From Martinezella tropici (lineage in GTDB: Bacteria; Pseudomonadota; Alphaproteobacteria; Rhizobiales; Rhizobiaceae), in the NCBI RefSeq assembly GCF_008370325.1, contig NZ_VNIP01000017.1:1-64000 (forward strand): DNA of 64,000 bases, written 5' to 3'. Both the position numbers and the translations under genes were made by a program. Within the stretch, counting starts at the first letter, position 1. Each line of letters opens with the position of its first letter. Positions 1-14,509 of this stretch are shown here, piece by piece. The notes under the pieces are model-generated. The model was not told where the DNA came from and did not search any database. It saw only the letters and a list, made by a program, of their open reading frames with translations.

Positions 1-1
1 G

Positions 2-1129
2 GCCCCGCCTTGGCGCTTACAAATCACGAAGTGGACGCAATGGCAGAACGCAGGTGGCCTCGTCGCCTATGATTCTGCCTTTTCAACAGCCATTGGTGGC
101 TATCCCAAGAATGCTCTTCTCTCTGGTACGGCACTTGGGATCATCTGGCTTTGCACTGCCGACAATAATACGAGCAATCCAGATAGTGCTGGGGCTGGTT
201 GGCTGAACGTTCCGACCGCGCTCGATCTTCTGACACAGAAATTCACCTATTATGTCGCCGGAGGCTCAGCGAATGCACTGACGGTCACTACGATCCCGGC
301 GATCACATCCTATACGGCTGGCCTTAGTCTTTCGGTCAAGATTGCTACCACAAACACCAGTACAGCTACAGTCAACGTCGATGGTATCGGCCTTATAGCC
401 ATCACCCGCGCGGATCTTTCTCCAACGCAGCCTGGAGACCTTCAAGCCGGTGCTATCGTAGAATTGAATTGCGATGGTACTCAATTTCAAATCAACGGTT
501 TGATCAGTTCTAACCTACCTTCCACTACTACGGTAACATTTGCCTCAAACACCACATGGACCCCGCCCACCGGCGTGACAAAAATTAAACGCGCCCGCGT
601 ATGGGGTGCCGGCGGCGGAGGCGGTGGTGCAAATGCCAATGCCGGAGCCGCCGGCGCTGGCGGCGGAGGCGGCGGTTATGCCGAGGGCATTAATTATGCG
701 GTTACTCCCGGTACTCCTGTCACAGTCACGGTTGGTACAGGTGGGGCAGGTGGCGCGACTACACCAACATCTGGCGGCAATGGCGGCTCATCATCCTTCG
801 GTGCCCTGATTTCCGCGACAGGCGGAACTGGCGGCGGTGGCGGCAACAGCGGTATTCAACCGGTGGGTTCATCTGGTGGCACTGGTAGCGGTGGGAATGT
901 CCTAAACCTCAGTGGGCAAGCGGGTGGTACTGGCTACGGCGTCACAGGTGGCACGCTATCCGGTATTGGCGGTGGTACTTTCGCAGCACCATCTTCCGGC
1001 CCGAATGCGGGCACGGGTGGATCTCCAGGCGCATATCCTGGAGGAGCTGGAGCCGGCGGCGCGGGAACGGCAGGCAGCGGAAGTATCGGGGGCACAGGTG
1101 CCAACGGCCTCATCATCATCGAATATTAA
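2..1129 (+). CDS. Phage tail protein with glycine-rich C-terminal domain (5' truncated)
   Basis: The reading frame is open from base 2, so the true start lies left of the window; about 375 residues are visible. The first half contains a TADNNTSNPDSAGAGW stretch of the kind seen in tail fibre or tail-tip proteins. From about residue 180 it changes to a WTPPTGVTKIKRARVWGAG lead-in followed by about 170 residues of Gly/Ala/Ser/Thr-rich sequence ending LIIIEY, the architecture of glycine-rich phage tail domains that form the receptor-binding tip. The next gene on the same strand also looks phage-derived. Role in host recognition is inferred from family; the module is low complexity, so homology is weak evidence. 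Confidence 0.75.
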   Translation, partial: APPWRLQITKWTQWQNAGGLVAYDSAFSTAIGGYPKNALLSGTALGIIWLCTADNNTSNPDSAGAGWLNVPTALDLLTQKFTYYVAGGSANALTVTTIPAITSYTAGLSLSVKIATTNTSTATVNVDGIGLIAITRADLSPTQPGDLQAGAIVELNCDGTQFQINGLISSNLPSTTTVTFASNTTWTPPTGVTKIKRARVWGAGGGGGGANANAGAAGAGGGGGGYAEGINYAVTPGTPVTVTVGTGGAGGATTPTSGGNGGSSSFGALISATGGTGGGGGNSGIQPVGSSGGTGSGGNVLNLSGQAGGTGYGVTGGTLSGIGGGTFAAPSSGPNAGTGGSPGAYPGGAGAGGAGTAGSGSIGGTGANGLIIIEY

Positions 1130-1142
1130 GGCTTTGGTAGGC

Positions 1143-1781
1143 ATGAAGCACAACGCCAAAGCCGAAGCGATCGTGCGCGAGATCTGCGCAGAGTACGATA
1201 TCGAGATCATCCCTGGCAACGTCTATCCCATGCCCGGGCAAACCCGCGCCTTGGCGACCATGTGCCAGATCCTCGCGAAATACGGAGAAGGCCATTTCCG
1301 GCTCGTCATGACGACTTTGGGCGAGACGCGGGGAAATAACGCGCTCATCGAGCAAACGAGCCTGTGGGCCGTCTCTGACCTAATACGGGCCTGTCCAGAT
1401 TGGGTGGAGAACAGAACCTCGGAATGGCTGCAGTGGTGGGACGAAATTCCGCTAGGACCGATCATTGCCACGATCAACCAGCTTCGCGGCGTCGTCCACC
1501 AGCGCCATGCCCTAGCCGGTGCTATTTACTGGCGTTTGTGTACCTATGCCCAGCAGCGCATGTCAGTCCAGGACACGGCTTCCACCATCAAGAACAAGGT
1601 TCCGGAAGTCGGCCGAGCTCGCAGCAATGCCAACCGTGAGCAGGCGATCGAGACTGGCCGGAAGCTTATCGAGATCAAAGGACGCCTGCCCCGTGGCGAA
1701 TGGCTGCCGTGGATCGAGCAGCAATCTGGACTGAGCTACGGCACGGTGCACCGGTATATGCGGATGGCGAAAGCGGCTTAA
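1143..1781 (+). CDS. Phage-associated protein with DUF3102-like helix-turn-helix C-terminus
   Basis: This 212-residue protein starts 13 bases after the tail gene. Its last ~50 residues (GRKLIEIKGRLPRGEWLPWI, then LSYGTVHRYMRMAK) match the pattern of DUF3102-type phage or plasmid proteins, with a helix-turn-helix at the end. The first 140 residues are rich in Trp and charged residues and I do not recognise them. An upstream in-frame extension into the tail gene is possible, but ATG at 1143 is the natural start. A DNA-binding or regulatory role on the mobile element is inferred only. Confidence 0.65.
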   Translation: MKHNAKAEAIVREICAEYDIEIIPGNVYPMPGQTRALATMCQILAKYGEGHFRLVMTTLGETRGNNALIEQTSLWAVSDLIRACPDWVENRTSEWLQWWDEIPLGPIIATINQLRGVVHQRHALAGAIYWRLCTYAQQRMSVQDTASTIKNKVPEVGRARSNANREQAIETGRKLIEIKGRLPRGEWLPWIEQQSGLSYGTVHRYMRMAKAA

Positions 1782-1802
1782 AATCGGACGCCACGAGTTG
1801 AC

Positions 1803-2342
1803 TTATCCCTGACGAAGGACCCCGATGATGTTAACTGAGCTGAACAGAAAACATAGACCGGACAGCAAACCAGAAGCGGCCGCCATCCACATCGTCGCGT
1901 TCACTGGATCCCTTGTCGATTGGTCTTGATGCCATTCGTCCGTCTTGAAGACCACAATCGGCTTGACTCTTGCCGAATAGAGCATTTCGGCAAATTGAAA
2001 GTTTAGCCACGCAAAGAAGCCGGCGACCAATGTAAGAAAAATTCCCGCAAGATGCCAACTCGCGCTTGTTATTAGGCCCACGACTTGATGCGGCTGGACC
2101 GCAGTTCGAAGTGCATTTAACGCGTATAGTGAACCGCCATGAACTGCTAGCAAGGAAGCAATGAGCCACTTGCCATATTCAACATGGCCTTGCCGAGCGT
2201 GATCGCGATATTGCTTCAAAAACTCATACCATTCACGGGCATGAAATTGATAGCGCTCGCGCCTTTTCGGATCGCTCCAGAGTTCTACAAATGGCGAATC
2301 ATCGTCGAAGCGAGCCTGCGCTCTTTCTTCTTGTTCGCTCAT
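1803..2342 (-). CDS. Hypothetical multi-pass membrane protein of the island
   Basis: A protein of 179 residues with a charged N-terminus (MSEQEERAQARFDDD), then three or four hydrophobic segments at roughly residues 60-80, 90-125 and 150-178, and a basic patch between the last two. ATG at 2342 overlaps the stop of the upstream small gene as ATGA, so the two are translationally coupled; a longer form starting at 2360 is less likely. No family recognised. Its position between phage genes and an Abi gene makes superinfection exclusion or another accessory membrane role possible, but this is inference. Confidence 0.55.
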   Translation of the reverse strand: MSEQEERAQARFDDDSPFVELWSDPKRRERYQFHAREWYEFLKQYRDHARQGHVEYGKWLIASLLAVHGGSLYALNALRTAVQPHQVVGLITSASWHLAGIFLTLVAGFFAWLNFQFAEMLYSARVKPIVVFKTDEWHQDQSTRDPVNATMWMAAASGLLSGLCFLFSSVNIIGVLRQG

Positions 2343-2557
2343 CCGAATACCTTCTTCCAAACCTCTGGGTCAAATTCTTTGAGCTCATCGCTAATAGCGC
2401 GATCAATAATCTCGATCTGTTGTTGAAGCTCAATCACCACCTTTATTGTACCCAGACTGTCGCTCGTAGCGGCAATAGATGCCTTTTCCCGTCGCCGCTT
2501 TACGAGCGCTTCTCTAACAGCGCGCAAATTTTCGACATTCTTTTGCTGCTCGGACAC
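2339..2557 (-). CDS. Small coiled-coil hypothetical protein
   Basis: A 72-residue, highly charged protein (VENLRAVREALVKRRREKAS, later KVVIELQQQIEIIDRAISDE) with heptad-like spacing that suggests one long helix or coiled coil. It is the first gene of a two-gene unit on the minus strand, and its stop overlaps the start of the membrane protein (ATGA). No family recognised. Coupled production with a membrane protein suggests that the two products work together. Confidence 0.5.
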   Translation of the reverse strand: MSEQQKNVENLRAVREALVKRRREKASIAATSDSLGTIKVVIELQQQIEIIDRAISDELKEFDPEVWKKVFG

Positions 2558-2729
2558 CAGTCGCTCCCGCTTGGTAATTGTCGAATGCAGAAGCTATCAA
2601 AAGGTGCGCGAATGTCGATGGCGATATTTCGCCTAATCCGCGAATCCGATTTGTGGAAACCTTGGAAAACCTAATTTGTGATTCGCCCGTTTCCTTGGCC
2701 TGAGGCCCAATGCCGCCAGGAGATGCGCT

Positions 2730-3323
2730 ATGTCGCTTGCCTATTACGCGCGAAATGCCGCTACGGCGGAACGAAACAGACGTCGGATGCGAAGAGAAGG
2801 TGTGACCATGAACGGATACAAACTCTGGACTGAAGAGGAAAAAGAAATCGTACGGCGGCTTTCGCCAGATTATGACGCGATTTGCAAACTCATCCCTTCA
2901 AGGAAAAGACGGTCCATCCAGCATATGGCATCAGCCATGGGCGTTGCAGGAGAAAAGCACCTTTACACTGCGGCGGAAATTTCGAAACTACGGCGTTTGT
3001 ATTCCACCGCTACATGGCAAGAAATCTTAGAAGCGTTTCCCTTCTCGGACAAAGAGCGCCTAAAAGGCGTCGCAAAATACCATGGTTTCAGGCGCCCGCG
3101 GAAGAAATTCAAACTCACCGGCGATCAGCCGATTGATGCTCTTCTTGAGAAATGCGCGGCTGCCAACCTATCATTGGTAGATCTTGATAAAGAGTGCCGC
3201 ACCAAGAACTATTTCCGTCACTGCAATTGGCGGAGCAAGCCCCCGAATTACACGCGCATCGTAAAAGCTATCAAACTGCTCGAAGGGCAGATGCGGGCTG
3301 AGTGGCCATCTGACGAATTTTGA
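2730..3323 (+). CDS. Putative DNA-binding protein with SANT/Myb-like N-terminus
   Basis: A 197-residue basic protein. Start ATG at 2730 follows an AGGAG ribosome site 8-9 bases upstream; an internal Met27 would lack one. Residues ~31-45 (LWTEEEKEIVRRL) resemble the first helix of a Myb/SANT-type or phage GcrA-like helix-turn-helix, and a second similar helix pair occurs near residues 80-105 (YTAAEISKLRRLYSTATWQE). The rest is Lys/Arg rich. It lies in the phage-derived region and is probably a phage regulator. Exact family not recognised. Confidence 0.6.
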   Translation: MSLAYYARNAATAERNRRRMRREGVTMNGYKLWTEEEKEIVRRLSPDYDAICKLIPSRKRRSIQHMASAMGVAGEKHLYTAAEISKLRRLYSTATWQEILEAFPFSDKERLKGVAKYHGFRRPRKKFKLTGDQPIDALLEKCAAANLSLVDLDKECRTKNYFRHCNWRSKPPNYTRIVKAIKLLEGQMRAEWPSDEF

Positions 3324-3392
3324 TAATGCATGTCGCATCGCATGCGCTCGAATAATTATGTTTTCCGCCGGTCTGGTGAACCTTCGATCGCT

Positions 3393-4292
3393 TTATTTCC
3401 ACGCTGGAAGATTTTTCCAATCTACCGGAAAACCCATGGCTGCGGGATCGGCCAAGGGACACGAATTTACCAATTCGACAAGTTGCTGACGCCAATGGTT
3501 TCCGGGCGCAACGATACTCATCATGTAGCCGAGAACAGCAAGCGTATTATAGATGCGACCTTGACTAGCTTGGTTCATGGCAAGTTTTAAGCTGGCCGGG
3601 GATTTTGGCACGATCATTTTTACGGTGACTTGCTTGTTCCAAAGACGCCCGTGATGCGCGCAGATATTTCGAACGTAGGTCAGATGGTGGGCCAGCGAAA
3701 CGAAAATTGTTTCGTCGAGCCCGTAGGTTTTTGCGACCGCCTGGCGATCAGGGCGATTTTTCAAATTGCTGTACCACATTGAGAGCTGCCCCAATGAGAT
3801 GATCTCTGCGGTCATCCATATCGGCGGATGTTCCGGATCATCGTATTTGCTCTTGTAATGAACGATGAAGGTGTCTTTCGACCTATCCAGATCTTCAATC
3901 AACTTTGCGAACGCTTGGGCGTATCGGTCGGGGCGGTTGTAAAGAGCTGGCTCAAGGTAGCCGTGGGGGCCGTATTTCATTGCAAGGTGGTGGGCCCAAC
4001 TTCCTCGCAGCGAAACCTCTACTCGTTCGATAGCATCCATCACGAGCAGCCGAAGGCGCCTGTCGAAAATATACAGGTCCAACACATTGTCGAAGGTGAT
4101 GCCATCTTTGAATTTGTGCCCGCCGCTTGTCGGTGCGATATCTTCGAACGGCAGCCAGTAAGCGCGCAGACGGTAGTAGCTTATATGCTGGAGACAATGA
4201 GCCGCATGTGCATGATCTGGAACGGCCATTCCTCTCGCTTCAAGCAGAGCAATTTGATCAGCGATCGAGACGGACGGTTTTTCGAACTTCAT
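3393..4292 (-). CDS. abiF: Abi family protein (Abi_2, AbiD/AbiF-like HEPN ribonuclease)
   Basis: A protein of 299 residues. The N-terminal half has the family hallmark [13 protein letters not shown] (residues 37-49) and [20 protein letters not shown] (76-95). The C-terminal half has the HEPN RNase signature R208-N-I-C-A-H213-H. Abi_2 proteins act in abortive infection, where a HEPN domain cleaves RNA after phage attack; this family is regarded as related to the ancestor of Cas13. A structured RNA lies just upstream on the same strand (4321-4387), as expected for HEPN toxin/RNA antitoxin pairs. No clear ribosome site precedes the ATG. Naming within the AbiD/AbiF family is by overall pattern only. 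Confidence 0.85.
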
Positions 4293-4320
4293 GCCATTTC
4301 ATAGGCGGATTCGAAGTCCT

Positions 4321-4387
4321 AGAAAAGGAAAACCCGCCGGGGTGCGCAGTTCCGAAACCAAGGTTTCGTCCGAGGCGTGGCGGGTGT
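4321..4387 (-). ncRNA. Structured RNA upstream of the Abi gene (AbiF-RNA-like candidate)
   Basis: Read on the minus strand, ACCCGCC (4385-4379) pairs perfectly with GGCGGGT (4338-4332). Inside it is a second hairpin, CGAAAC/GTTTCG with a CTTG loop (4368-4353). The outer stem is followed by a T-rich run (4331-4321), so the element looks like a small RNA with its own terminator. It ends 28 bases before the Abi start codon on the same strand. Known biology: a conserved AbiF RNA motif is described next to HEPN Abi genes and can serve as RNA antitoxin. I recognise the pattern from memory; the 5' end is not defined and may extend toward 4440. Confidence 0.6.
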
Positions 4388-4641
4388 TGTTAGGCAGAGA
4401 TATGGCGCATGAGTCCTAAGAAAGCAATAAGAGGTGGCCACAAAAACGCGGCCCACGTGCCAAGCCTTTGATCTAGATTCAGAATTTTTTCATGTCGCGC
4501 TGCATGTTGCATGGATTCGCCGAGCGTGCCGGGAATCCCTCGGAAATGAACGGGAACAGCTCGCAACAACACGCAACACGAAATACCGAAAACTCACAGC
4601 ACGCCACACATCTAAACTGCTGTTCTTATTGAGGTTTATAG

Positions 4642-4717
4642 TGGTGCCCAGAGCCGGAATCGAACCAGCGACACGCGGATTTTCAATCCGCTGCTCTACC
4701 AACTGAGCTATCTGGGC
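4642..4717 (-). tRNA. tRNA-Phe (GAA)
   Basis: A 76-base cloverleaf on the minus strand with acceptor stem GCCCAGA/TCTGGGC and encoded CCA (4644-4642). The anticodon stem GCGGA/TCCGC holds the loop TTGAAAA, giving anticodon GAA. The T-arm is CTGG-TTCGATT-CCGG. Its 3' end points toward the phage and Abi genes at lower coordinates, which suits a tRNA used as an integration site. Confidence 0.97.
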
Positions 4718-11290: not shown

Positions 11291-11365
11291 GCTGCTATAG
11301 CTCAGGGGTAGAGCACTCCCTTGGTAAGGGAGAGGCCGAGAGTTCAAATCTCTCTAGCAGCACCA
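11291..11365 (+). tRNA. tRNA-Thr (GGT)
   Basis: A 75-base cloverleaf: acceptor GCTGCTA/TAGCAGC, D-arm AGCTCAGGGGTAGAGC, anticodon stem CTCCC/GGGAG with loop TTGGTAA (anticodon GGT), T-arm GAGAG-TTCAAAT-CTCTC, encoded CCA. An integrase remnant follows 66 bases downstream on the same strand, which fits use of the tRNA 3' end as an attachment site. Confidence 0.97.
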
Positions 11366-11431
11366 GTTTTCCTTGTTGTTTCGCAAGGACTTACCAGAAA
11401 ATCAACGGGTTACCGCCTCGCTTGCTCCTGC

Positions 11432-11728
11432 GTGCTGCTACAGCGGAGCAATAAACGACATGCCGCTGCCCCCGGCCTCATCAAACGCGGAAATGTCCAT
11501 TGGTTTAGGTGTTCGATCCCGCGCGATATCAAAGATTCTTATCCCAAAACGGACGAAACGTTCTCGCTGAAATCCCGCGACTACCAGGAGGCGCTGAAAA
11601 AGCTTCGGAAAGCCTCTGCGGAGGTTGATGAGTGGTTCGAAGAACACAGGCTACGTCAGATGCAGCCATCGCCGCGCGGACCGGCCCTCGGGGAATGCTG
11701 CGTGATCAATCTTCATGATCCCACCTGA
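11432..11728 (+). pseudogene. Truncated tyrosine-recombinase (integrase) N-terminus
   Basis: The translated segment PGLIKRGNVHWFRCSIPRDI followed by SLKSRDYQEALKKLRKASAE and VDEWFEEHR matches the N-terminal domain (DUF6538-like) of phage or island integrases, which normally run to 350-600 residues. Here the frame continues only to a stop at 11728, with an unrelated tail, and the catalytic Arg-His-Arg-Tyr domain is missing. No ATG precedes it in frame; GTG at 11432 is only a guess. Its place just after tRNA-Thr marks an old integration event. Confidence 0.7.
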
Positions 11729-11998
11729 TATTTTTGCGATGAAAACAATCGCGTAATAAACGCCTCAAATACTTCGCACCGATACTTCTCCAAACAGGGT
11801 TTCGACCGAATGTAACACCGAGAGACATTCAAATGGTCGACGATTGTAGCTTCGCCAAAGAAGAAGGTTGGCCCATTCCCACTGTTCGCGATTTTTCGAA
11901 TTTCACCACCTGTGGACGCGGGTAGTAAAATCAACAACTCCATAGGCAAAAGGCGAGATTGCGGCTACCACTAATATCAAACCGTATTGGGGGGGCGC

Positions 11999-14509
11999 AT
12001 GTTCGAGATTAATGAGCACGATGGTAACCTTCTCCTGAAGGCTATAAACGACGGTAACGCGGTCTTATTGCTTGGAGCAGGGGCATCTGCCACCTCGCTG
12101 AATGCGCAGGGACAGAAGGTTAAGCTGGGAAAAGCTCTTGCGGGTGAACTTGCAGGAATGGCGGGGCTACCTTACGCCGACGAAGATTTACCGGACGTAA
12201 TTCAAGCCGTTCGCCCCAGGGTAAGCGAGCTACAGCTTCATCAGTTATTTCGAAAAGAATTCACTCGGATAGTTCCCGCCGCCGAATTTCGTGAGCTTTT
12301 TCAGTATAGTTGGCGCCGCTTATATACGTGGAACATTGATGACGCGATTGAGAACATTCAGTCTTCTGCGCAGAGTCGGCGTTATTACAATGGACTTATT
12401 GACAGAGTAGCTGTCGATGAAGGAATCGAGTATCTTCACGTAATCCACCTACACGGCGAGGCTTCCAAACCGGAACACGGTTTTATATTTGGACCTTCCG
12501 AATACAACCGACGGCTTAACAGCGATAAGCATGATTGGTATCGACAAGCAGCTTCCGATTATGCAGCGTATGTGCCGATATTCATTGGCAGCACTCTAAA
12601 GGAGCCCATTCTTTCAGCGGAACTCGATCGCGCACGTCCAAATACGGATTCATCTCTGGGCACGGCTTTTCTGATCACGCCGGATGAGTTCACCGCTCTC
12701 CAAAAAGCTGCGTATCAGGCTCGAAATATTGTTGTTGTGCAGGGGACACTTGCTGATTTTACCGACTGGCTTCGCGGAGCCATTAGTGGCGGCTTGAGCC
12801 CGCTGCAAATTAGCAAGAAAAGAAACACATTCACCGAAACCCTCGCATCGAGAATCACGCCTACACGGGCAGAAATTAGCACCGCCAATTTCATTCGGGT
12901 TCAGACTTGGCAAGATGCGAAAAGCAAAGCGGAAGAACTTCAAGGGTTGAAGCGGCAACGTGCGGCCCGAGCTTTCCTCGAAGGAGAACCTCCAAGCTGG
13001 CAAATCGCCGCAAGCGACATACCAGTTTGGCTTACCGCAACCGGTGAGTTGTACGCCGCACTTTCGTCCTCCATTGACGCTGGAGATCGAATATTTCTTG
13101 TATATGGCCAATCCGGCAGTGGCAAAACGACCGCACTTCTCCAGGCACTACTTCGATATGTTCAAGAGCATGACGGAAGGGGTGTCTACGAACTAAAAGG
13201 CGAGGTGAGATCCCTACGTGCATCCCTTGAACTAATCTCTCGGCTTCACAAAGACGATCACGCCATAGTCTACATCGGTGATGCTTTCATTTATGGTGAC
13301 GCGCTTAGCGAGGATGCTTTAGCCCTTCCGCGAGGTAGAATAACCCTCATCACAAGTGCGCGATCACACGAATGGCGTCACCATATTGAGCGGCGCGTTG
13401 GAGATTTTACGACACCGTTCGAATTCCAGCGATTTGTAAAGAAAGACCATCCGCCCCTCATCGAAAGGTTACTTGAATACGTTCCGTCGCCTAGTTTCCT
13501 AAAAATGAGCCCTAACGAGAGAACGCAGAAGCTGGCAACCTCACAAGAGCAACTGCTAATAGCGTTGAAAGAGGCGACATCTTCCGAGAAATTCACGAAG
13601 GTGATCACGGACGAGTATGAGCACCTGCCGGACAACGACACCAAAGCACTATTTCTAATTGTCGGACTCGCAACTATCTCACGGACTGGAATCTCCGCTG
13701 GCGTAGCGCGGGAATCATACAATAGGCTTCGAACGGAATTGTCGTTCGACGGCGCTATGCGTCAGTTGGAAGGTATTGTGAGTACGAACTCAACAGGGCG
13801 TCTGGTCGCACGTCACGAGTTATACGTTCGACATATTCTGGAGAACGTCGCGGACTTTCCAGCCATTATCGACGCCGCTGTCGAGACCCTTCGAACTTAT
13901 ACAAAATATGCCCTACCCATTGTAAAAAACGTAGATCGATTGGATGGCCTGCTTTTCAAATTCATACTCAATCACAATTTCATCGGCGAATTAGCTCGTC
14001 GGCGAAACGAGGTTGAAGAAGCCTTGCGGGTATTCCAGAGTTTTGAGATCGATTTTCAGCTTGATGGTCATTTCTGGCTGCAGTACGGGCAATATCTTGC
14101 GATGTTCGGAGAACTTGAACCGGCTTTGCGTGCCTTGGAGAAGTCAATAGCAGCCTACCCTGAGAATATTTTTGCGGTTCATGCTTTAGCCGACCTCCAA
14201 CTGAGAGTGGCAATCACGCGCGATACTTTTGACGCAACCACCGTTGCTTTAATCGGCGATGCGGTGGAGACATTAGAAGGTCTTCATGCTGCACAAGGTA
14301 TTGAGGCAGATTTCTATCCAATCGTAACGCTTGCCGATAGGCATGTGTCCGCCCTGATCAAGCACGGTCAGCAGAAATCCGCCTTGTCTGCCGCGCAGCG
14401 ATATTTCCGACTAATAGAGTCGATGCGACGTACTGATTTGCAGATAGATCGGGCAAGAGAGCGGCTAGCCCATTACATTACGCATGGCACATGGGAAAAA
14501 GGCCAGTAG
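11999..14509 (+). CDS. SIR2-STAND-TPR antiphage defence protein (Avs5-like architecture)
   Basis: An 836-residue protein with three parts. Residues ~10-290 form a SIR2-like NADase: AVLLLGAGASATS (GAGAS at 26-30), YTWNIDD with N112, and IHLHG with H152. Residues ~350-620 form a STAND-type NTPase: Walker A GQSGSGKTT (K376), Walker B-like VYIGD (D428) and sensor ITSAR (T452). Residues ~640-836 form a helical TPR-like sensor region. ATG at 11999 was chosen over TTG at 11987. Known biology: SIR2-STAND proteins sense phage proteins and deplete NAD+. The gene is AT-richer than the core around it, alone, and next to an integrase scar. The phage trigger cannot be predicted. Confidence 0.85.
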   Translation: MFEINEHDGNLLLKAINDGNAVLLLGAGASATSLNAQGQKVKLGKALAGELAGMAGLPYADEDLPDVIQAVRPRVSELQLHQLFRKEFTRIVPAAEFRELFQYSWRRLYTWNIDDAIENIQSSAQSRRYYNGLIDRVAVDEGIEYLHVIHLHGEASKPEHGFIFGPSEYNRRLNSDKHDWYRQAASDYAAYVPIFIGSTLKEPILSAELDRARPNTDSSLGTAFLITPDEFTALQKAAYQARNIVVVQGTLADFTDWLRGAISGGLSPLQISKKRNTFTETLASRITPTRAEISTANFIRVQTWQDAKSKAEELQGLKRQRAARAFLEGEPPSWQIAASDIPVWLTATGELYAALSSSIDAGDRIFLVYGQSGSGKTTALLQALLRYVQEHDGRGVYELKGEVRSLRASLELISRLHKDDHAIVYIGDAFIYGDALSEDALALPRGRITLITSARSHEWRHHIERRVGDFTTPFEFQRFVKKDHPPLIERLLEYVPSPSFLKMSPNERTQKLATSQEQLLIALKEATSSEKFTKVITDEYEHLPDNDTKALFLIVGLATISRTGISAGVARESYNRLRTELSFDGAMRQLEGIVSTNSTGRLVARHELYVRHILENVADFPAIIDAAVETLRTYTKYALPIVKNVDRLDGLLFKFILNHNFIGELARRRNEVEEALRVFQSFEIDFQLDGHFWLQYGQYLAMFGELEPALRALEKSIAAYPENIFAVHALADLQLRVAITRDTFDATTVALIGDAVETLEGLHAAQGIEADFYPIVTLADRHVSALIKHGQQKSALSAAQRYFRLIESMRRTDLQIDRARERLAHYITHGTWEKGQ

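Follow-up and report, generated by a model that had tools for sequence, protein, structure and literature searches.

Near the start of contig NZ_VNIP01000017.1 of Martinezella tropici (assembly GCF_008370325.1), a gene for an abortive-infection protein lies close to a tRNA-Phe gene and is preceded by a sequence that can fold into a nested hairpin. The questions raised by this locus are whether gene and hairpin form an RNA-regulated toxin-antitoxin pair carried by a prophage, as the initial annotation had proposed, and whether such RNAs also occur apart from a toxin. Here, the window means the whole stretch of DNA that was analysed, 64,000 nucleotides in length (positions 1 to 64,000 of the forward strand of the contig). 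Judged from its sequence, the window locus is very probably a prophage-borne AbiF/abiF-RNA toxin-antitoxin pair.

AbiF toxin gene and its upstream RNA

The gene at 3393..4292 (minus strand) encodes an AbiF/Abi_2 HEPN ribonuclease toxin of 299 aa, as identified by Pfam, PADLOC, PHROG and PDB sequence and fold matches. Its Abi_2 domain covers residues 32-219 (Pfam, E 5.8e-59, 199.9 bits against a curated cut-off of 25.6), PADLOC assigns the protein to AbiD (E 2.3e-73), and PHROG 2158 (abortive infection protein) matches it with an E value of 3e-63. The HEPN active-site motif R208-N-I-C-A-H213 (RxxxxH), located by ORF translation and alignment, is encoded at 3654..3671 (minus strand), and R208, N209 and H213 are unchanged in 17 of 17 aligned sequences, the window's included. 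The only clear PDB relative by sequence is 8vz6 (E 1.7e-53). An AlphaFold2 model (monomer, 17-sequence alignment, pLDDT 92.0, pTM 0.88) was compared with PDB by Foldseek, and among 143 matches at E<=10 only 8vz6 (‘PbAbiF dimer bound to ncRNA’) reaches E<=1e-3 (TM 0.91, 32% identity, E 7.9e-20). The reading frame, the invariant residues, the Pfam match and the 8vz6 fold bear out the initial description of a full-length Abi_2 gene with an intact R208-x4-H213 HEPN site.

The upstream abiF-type RNA (4324..4390, minus strand), identified by an Rfam RF03085 match, alignment and covariation, consists of a leader ACAACA, a structured part and a 3' T-rich tract, and it ends about 28-40 bases ahead of the AbiF start codon on the same strand. 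Its MFE fold shows all three stems: the outer stem P1 (4332..4385, minus strand; 7 bp, 4379-4385 paired with 4332-4338), followed by the T-rich tract; P2 (4345..4377, minus strand; 3 bp, CGC at 4375-4377 paired with GCG at 4345-4347); and the inner hairpin P3 (4353..4368, minus strand; 6 bp, 4363-4368 paired with 4353-4358), which has a CUUG tetraloop and is also supported by covariation. The fold thereby confirms the nested hairpin first seen by eye upstream of AbiF on the same strand, with its 7-bp outer stem, 6-bp inner stem and T-rich end. About 14 nt before P1 there is a candidate promoter, TTGCTT-N17-CATATC (4399..4427, minus strand), largely kept in an alignment of close relatives; a sigma-70 consensus scan gave no match at this site. 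The folding energy of the RNA alone is unremarkable (z -0.99; 35 of 200 shuffles equally stable), so the case for the RNA rests on homology, linkage and covariation.

Regarding homology, the consensus stems of RF03085 (abiF) and its conserved CCUC and GGCGGGU segments are present in the window RNA in the Rfam alignment. The Infernal check proposed in the initial annotation gave a positive score at 4332-4384 (minus strand; 32.1 bits; E 5.8e-4 for a searched stretch of 501 bases), but one below the curated cut-off of 37, and a whole-window Rfam scan at curated cut-offs listed two tRNAs without the abiF RNA. Therefore, we name it an abiF-type RNA and not an RF03085 hit. Other RNAs of the window type behave alike: L043-L045 score 32.1-32.2 bits, and L002, L003, L004, L006, L008, L009, L037 and L039 have no RF03085 match at cut-off 37, indicating a sub-type that slips below the Rfam cut-off.

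Covariation was measured in an alignment of 16 distinct window-type RNAs, 11 bacterial (including the window's) and 5 from viral contigs, in which 43 of 67 columns are invariant. Two pairs of P3 carry compensatory changes, and 96.1% of P3 cells are paired, against at most 43.4% when slid. There are 9 doubly changed P3 cells (shuffled mean 4.1; 1 of 500 shuffles as high), and the covariation score of the alignment was reached by 0 of 500 shuffles. Two of the five covariation measures are about the same as in shuffles (double-change pairs, 2 vs 1.6; further pair types, 6 vs 5.7), and the triloop rows L008 and L014 are misaligned in P3, which lowers the P3 count. The P1 and P2 columns never vary in these 16 close RNAs, so covariation there is uninformative for both stems. 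RNAalifold recovers P1 and P3 on the close set with P2, whose columns are invariant, slightly shifted, and one P2 pair covaries in the wider abiF RNA family. A covarying structure upstream of Abi_2 homologues is therefore present in the form of the P3 inner hairpin.

P1 together with the T-rich tract may double as a Rho-independent terminator. This resemblance, and the observation that C. difficile transcripts mostly stop before the gene (PMC12373285), would also fit a hairpin that is a transcription attenuator or terminator in the toxin leader only, without an antitoxin role in trans. We consider this unlikely, since the RNA alignment and the Rfam match show conservation in loops and bulges whose sequence would not matter for a terminator, solitary viral copies (see below) keep fold and core with no adjacent toxin gene to attenuate, and RCd22 is described as neutralising in trans (PMC12373285). 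That AbiF uses the RNA as a guide to target particular RNAs, in the manner of a proto-Cas13, is extremely unlikely. AbiF has been proposed as the Cas13 ancestor (PMC12165695, PMC12737573), but the RNA lacks a variable stretch of the kind a guide would have, since 43 of its 67 columns are invariant and most others belong to the self-paired hairpin or the flanks, and reviews describe AbiF as lacking RNA-targeting specificity (PMC12948488, PMC12737573).

Gene-RNA linkage and the prophage

A protein scan of genome contigs gave 25 Abi_2 loci, 14 of which (L002-L014 and L023) are close to the window's, at 65-84% identity. All 10 close loci with an uninterrupted toxin possess an abiF-type RNA. The toxin is interrupted in the other four: by an internal stop in L007, a frameshift in L014, a lost start and truncation in L023, and a split over contig ends in L010. 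In L007 and L014 the RNA is intact, in line with loss of the toxin being tolerated, but not loss of the RNA before it; the L010 RNA is found on a different contig, apparently from the same assembly, and that of L023 is decayed (64 bits on the relatives' model). The window-type RNA pattern was found in five stretches of viral contigs, one of them also recovered by protein, and an AbiF gene (60-69% identity) follows immediately downstream in all five. Four distant Abi_2 loci have an abiF RNA at the Rfam cut-off (L019, L020, L050 and L049, with 57.8, 48, 52.3 and 43.9 bits), and most of the remaining distant loci have none at that cut-off. In the window, the RNA gene adjoins the toxin gene upstream on the same strand, which is the type III toxin-antitoxin arrangement.

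Other hairpins were seen upstream of distant Abi_2 genes (L051-L053 and L055-L058), e.g. GGGTCACCACACG...GTGCAACAGGGTGGCCC, with a similar P1-A-P2-P3 plan by eye and no RF03085 match; from these, the abiF RNA family seems wider than Rfam's model. The close relatives L007, L008 and L014 adjoin tRNA-Ala(GGC), so the location of AbiF at tRNA genes recurs.

The tRNA-Phe (GAA) gene of the window, found by tRNA scan at 4642..4717 (minus strand), is the integration site of the prophage. The 3' 47 bases of this tRNA (4642..4688, minus strand) form an attachment-site repeat identical to positions 7182-7228 of C31, a contig of the same genome; one prophage end occupies 1..4641 of the window, and the other is at C31:7228. 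C31 carries a phage integrase of 416 aa (C31:5874-7124; Pfam E 1.3e-14), whose gene stops 57 bases short of the repeat. Among 13 genomes, the window's included, an empty site was found in the congeners G297 and G1126, where tRNA-Phe joins directly the sequence that follows the C31 repeat; in the remaining genomes the flank was matched partly or not at all. Repeat, integrase and empty site indicate that the element inserts at tRNA-Phe, AbiF marking one of its ends and the integrase the opposite one. To the left of AbiF there are a glycine-rich phage tail-fibre-type protein (464..1129, plus strand; PHROG 863 E 1.1e-30, Pfam Gly_rich_2) and further genes with phage-family matches. The AbiF/RNA pair is cargo of an integrated prophage, read from its two ends, and lies between the attachment repeats. 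The prophage-borne position between phage genes and tRNA-Phe, suspected at first, is thus supported by the repeat, the integrase, the empty site and the tail-fibre gene, and the HEPN toxin, its cognate structured RNA and this phage/tRNA junction together support the reading as an RNA-regulated HEPN toxin-antitoxin pair.

The interrupted toxins of 4 of the 14 close loci, and the splitting of the prophage over contigs in the window's assembly, could mean that the prophage is defective and the pair a relic in decay. For the window pair this is very improbable: the ORF is full length, the active site is intact, and the RNA scores 90.5 bits on the relatives' model, which includes the window RNA by construction.

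Several further features were observed on this contig. Window positions 1-20 equal L042:2-21: contigs C9 and C31 share their first 20 bases, with an offset of one, which suggests that the assembly broke at a repeat within the prophage. Of two phage-end genes, that at 2730-3323 has a D5-like regulator match (PHROG 323, E 3.6e-7) and that at 1803-2360 only weak matches. The region 11291-14509 holds, after tRNA-Thr, a DUF6538 fragment and a protein of 840 aa in which SIR2_2, nSTAND_NTPase5 and TPR domains are recognised; this protein has a weak PADLOC Avs5 match (E 0.0056) and may represent a second tRNA-associated defence gene.

For the toxin-antitoxin pair, the following mechanism can be envisaged. 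The candidate promoter upstream would drive a short RNA of about 60-70 nt, and P1 with the T tract would end most transcripts, occasional read-through yielding the toxin mRNA, by analogy with C. difficile RCd22. The folded RNA would bind the AbiF dimer and keep the HEPN ribonuclease off, as for PbAbiF and AbiFCd. When phage infection or prophage loss halts the RNA supply, the freed toxin would cut RNA and arrest the cell; kin of the lysogen would thereby be spared, and the prophage would be kept more stably. The window pair is thus a putative defence system.

Solitary abiF RNAs in viral and bacterial sequences

We searched 394 genomes of the window's family with the window-type RNA model. A match at E<=0.05 was present in 118 of them, and only the ten best places (at least 34.8 bits) were taken as abiF RNAs; six loci at 29.1-31.6 bits look like plain terminators, and several other weak matches fall on the two strands of a single place. 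Among the ten best, five RNAs are beside AbiF genes (the window's included; that of G148 has an internal stop), one belongs to a toxin split over contig ends, and four have no Abi_2 within about 3-8 kb; one of these four has a terminase 1.7 kb away.

A general abiF RNA pattern, in which P1 is fixed while P3 and one P2 pair are free, was then used to scan viral contigs, and neighbouring toxins were searched with an Abi_2 profile from 20 relatives. The scan gave at least 120 stretches, of which 119 were analysed; those listed represent 101 distinct contexts and 77 distinct cores. Among the matches listed, a toxin adjoins the RNA in only 5 of 119 (L037, L142, L154, L155 and L210), and 114 have no adjacent Abi_2; for 102 of these, 700 bases or more of downstream sequence were available. 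In two overlapping sets of 398 and 397 bacterial genomes, the same pattern gave 15 distinct matches, 8 of them with a toxin. Five bacterial matches (L217, L226, L227, L229, L230) and three of the viral ones listed (L160, L181, L208) are, by eye, likely chance matches in GC-rich coding DNA. Because they were judged after the toxin result was known, we give both counts: toxin linkage is 8 of 15 in bacteria vs 5 of 119 among the viral matches listed in the raw data (Fisher p 3e-6), and 8 of 10 vs 5 of 116 after removal of the chance matches (p 4e-8). These p values are indicative, since the bacterial sample is small and limited to the window's phylum, and the viral one consists of the matches listed, with related contigs included.

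Rfam abiF was found at its cut-off in 17 of 20 picked viral loci, and in 16 of the 18 that are solitary (L142 and L154 being toxin-linked). Among the 114 solitary copies listed, six ambiguous parses were taken at their first reading. The free P2 pair is standard in 105 of these copies (shuffled mean 56.7), as C-G, U-A, G-C, A-U or G-U, and the second P3 pair is likewise standard in 105 (shuffled mean 68.0); counted over the distinct solitary cores listed, the figures are 63 of 72 and 64 of 72, respectively. The first P3 pair is nearly invariant and adds little (107 vs shuffled 104.4 in the 114 copies listed). By the evidence of these sequences, the solitary viral copies are real abiF RNAs, with a fold kept by compensatory changes.

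The surroundings of the solitary copies are diverse. Of 19 viral loci sampled, 12 gave a PHROG match of known phage function for the ORF tested, among them portal, terminase, major head protein, polymerase and integrase. The 101 proteins downstream of the solitary RNAs listed fall into 72 clusters, which argues against one partner gene. A tRNA lies within 300 nt of 7 of the 114 solitary metagenomic copies listed, a weak excess over the 2.4 expected. An ORF of at least 70 aa on either strand, by a crude ORF caller, overlaps 53 of 111 solitary viral RNAs listed, so we do not claim that they are intergenic.

By blastn, abiF-type RNAs were also found in isolated phages of Rhizobium, Brevundimonas, Aeromonas, Salicola, Acinetobacter, Synechococcus, Arthrobacter and Mycobacterium, with 39 Mycobacterium phage records carrying a solitary RNA in one search. 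The window RNA itself had no blastn match in ‘phages’, an RNA query had none in E. coli genomes, and the Acinetobacter phage RNA had one match in plasmids, from Phocaeicola. We inspected 13 isolated phages, picked by the author and partly related. Rfam was run on 11 of them (PZL-Ah8 and Baka left out): 8 score at or above the cut-off, those of Mimi (33.0) and Pasto (30.3) fall below it, and Bajun has no abiF match at E<=2. In the 13 phages, P1 stems differ and yet each of six positions has a standard pair in 11-13 of them, and positions 3 to 6 show compensatory changes; the parse selected the frame giving the largest number of pairs and is thus biased towards such an outcome. The T7-like phage Pasto shares the identical 19-nt core ACGCCUCUCAACGAUGCGC with nine solitary viral stretches listed and with the toxin-linked RNA of L050, from a genome of the window's own family, and its outer stem differs from that of L050 but is still paired. 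The RNA lies within 300 nt of a tRNA in 7 of 13 (Bajun, Mimi, S-CREM1, S-SZBM1, RHEph21, Baka and Thibault), inside tRNA arrays in the first four, and between the head-to-tail connector and capsid assembly genes in three Aeromonas phages.

A protein search of the same collection found relatives of the window AbiF in 65 phage records, of Streptococcus, Clostridioides, Lactococcus, Listeria, Enterococcus, Lactobacillus, Staphylococcus and unnamed ‘Bacteriophage sp.’. No AbiF record appeared under the host names of the RNA-bearing phages, although a very divergent AbiF could escape at the E value used. AbiF genes are present on plasmids of several host genera of solitary-RNA phages, including Acinetobacter, Arthrobacter and Rhizobium, and, by eye, an abiF-like hairpin precedes the gene on an Acinetobacter pittii plasmid.

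The solitary abiF RNAs of many phages (T7-like, T4-like, very large and actinobacterial) may be ready-made antitoxins or decoys against AbiF, a proposal to which we give an even chance. On infection, such an RNA, often placed in a tRNA array or beside structural genes, would keep the AbiF of the host or a resident prophage bound and silent, and the AbiF of the window's prophage would be one target. It is also possible, if on balance doubtful, that the solitary viral copies are relics or re-used terminators. At least 4 T follow P1 within a 6-base window in 89 of the 114 solitary copies listed, some copies lie between structural genes, where terminators are expected, two of the four toxin-less copies from the window's family look degenerate by eye, and phage sk1 has no abiF RNA. 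Relics or terminators would not readily account for the compensatory changes that keep P2 and P3 (105 of the 114 listed, each at one pair) and P1 (13 isolated phages), for the unpaired core common to solitary copies and a toxin-linked RNA, or for the varied neighbours of the copies listed (101 downstream proteins in 72 clusters).

Phage sk1 deserves mention since, by a title in the reference list of PMC12737573, a DNA region of this lactococcal phage protects phage 712 from AbiF. An abiF RNA was therefore expected in sk1, but Rfam, with E values of up to 10 allowed, finds none in this phage or in 712. The result counts against a simple decoy there, or else the lactococcal RNA is too divergent for RF03085.

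Comparison with known systems

Two toxin-antitoxin pairs of AbiF and an RNA have been published, C. difficile AbiF/RCd22 (PMC12373285) and PbAbiF/AbiFr (PMC12737573), so the window pair is an added example, not a new type of system. For the C. difficile relative, toxicity without the RNA and neutralisation by direct RNA-protein binding are reported (PMC12373285). The window pair resembles the type III system AbiF/AbiFr (PbAbiF, 8vz6) in fold (TM 0.91), HEPN R-x4-H motif and RNA partner (PMC12737573), and differs from it in that the window RNA is below the Rfam cut-off. The inner hairpin of the window RNA has 6 bp and a tetraloop, and that of the Rfam consensus is of the short CUCUCAACGAUGC type. 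AbiFCd/RCd22 of prophage phi027 is likewise prophage-borne, with a HEPN site and with the RNA directly upstream and a terminator-like hairpin ahead of the gene (PMC12373285). However, RCd22 has two abiF motifs and lies in the lysis module (PMC12373285), whereas the window RNA has a single motif, with its own P1 apparently serving as terminator, and lies at the attachment-site end of the prophage. Window-type members share motif and stems with RF03085 and score below its cut-off, so the AbiF RNA family is probably under-counted in Alphaproteobacteria.

A phage abiF RNA has been discussed for cyanophage S-CREM1 (PMC9964418; PMC12197685), three phage genomes with abiF RNA in Rfam are mentioned (PMC9964418), and abiF RNAs with a toxin are discussed for C. 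difficile phages (PMC12373285); in the accessible parts of the literature searched, which was mainly openly available, no decoy role for phage abiF RNAs is proposed. The solitary abiF RNAs may work like two known phage RNA mimics directed against RNA-binding defence proteins, pseudo-ToxI of phage TE (PMC5086642) and the solitary CRISPR repeats called Racr (PMC10651486). Pseudo-ToxI arose in escape mutants (PMC5086642) and the Racrs concern CRISPR-Cas (PMC10651486), whereas the function of the solitary abiF RNAs is putative. If the decoy proposal is true, AbiF, the proposed Cas13 ancestor, is opposed in nature by phage-made RNA antitoxins, and the solitary abiF RNAs would be a natural RNA-only counter-defence, parallel to RNA anti-CRISPRs.
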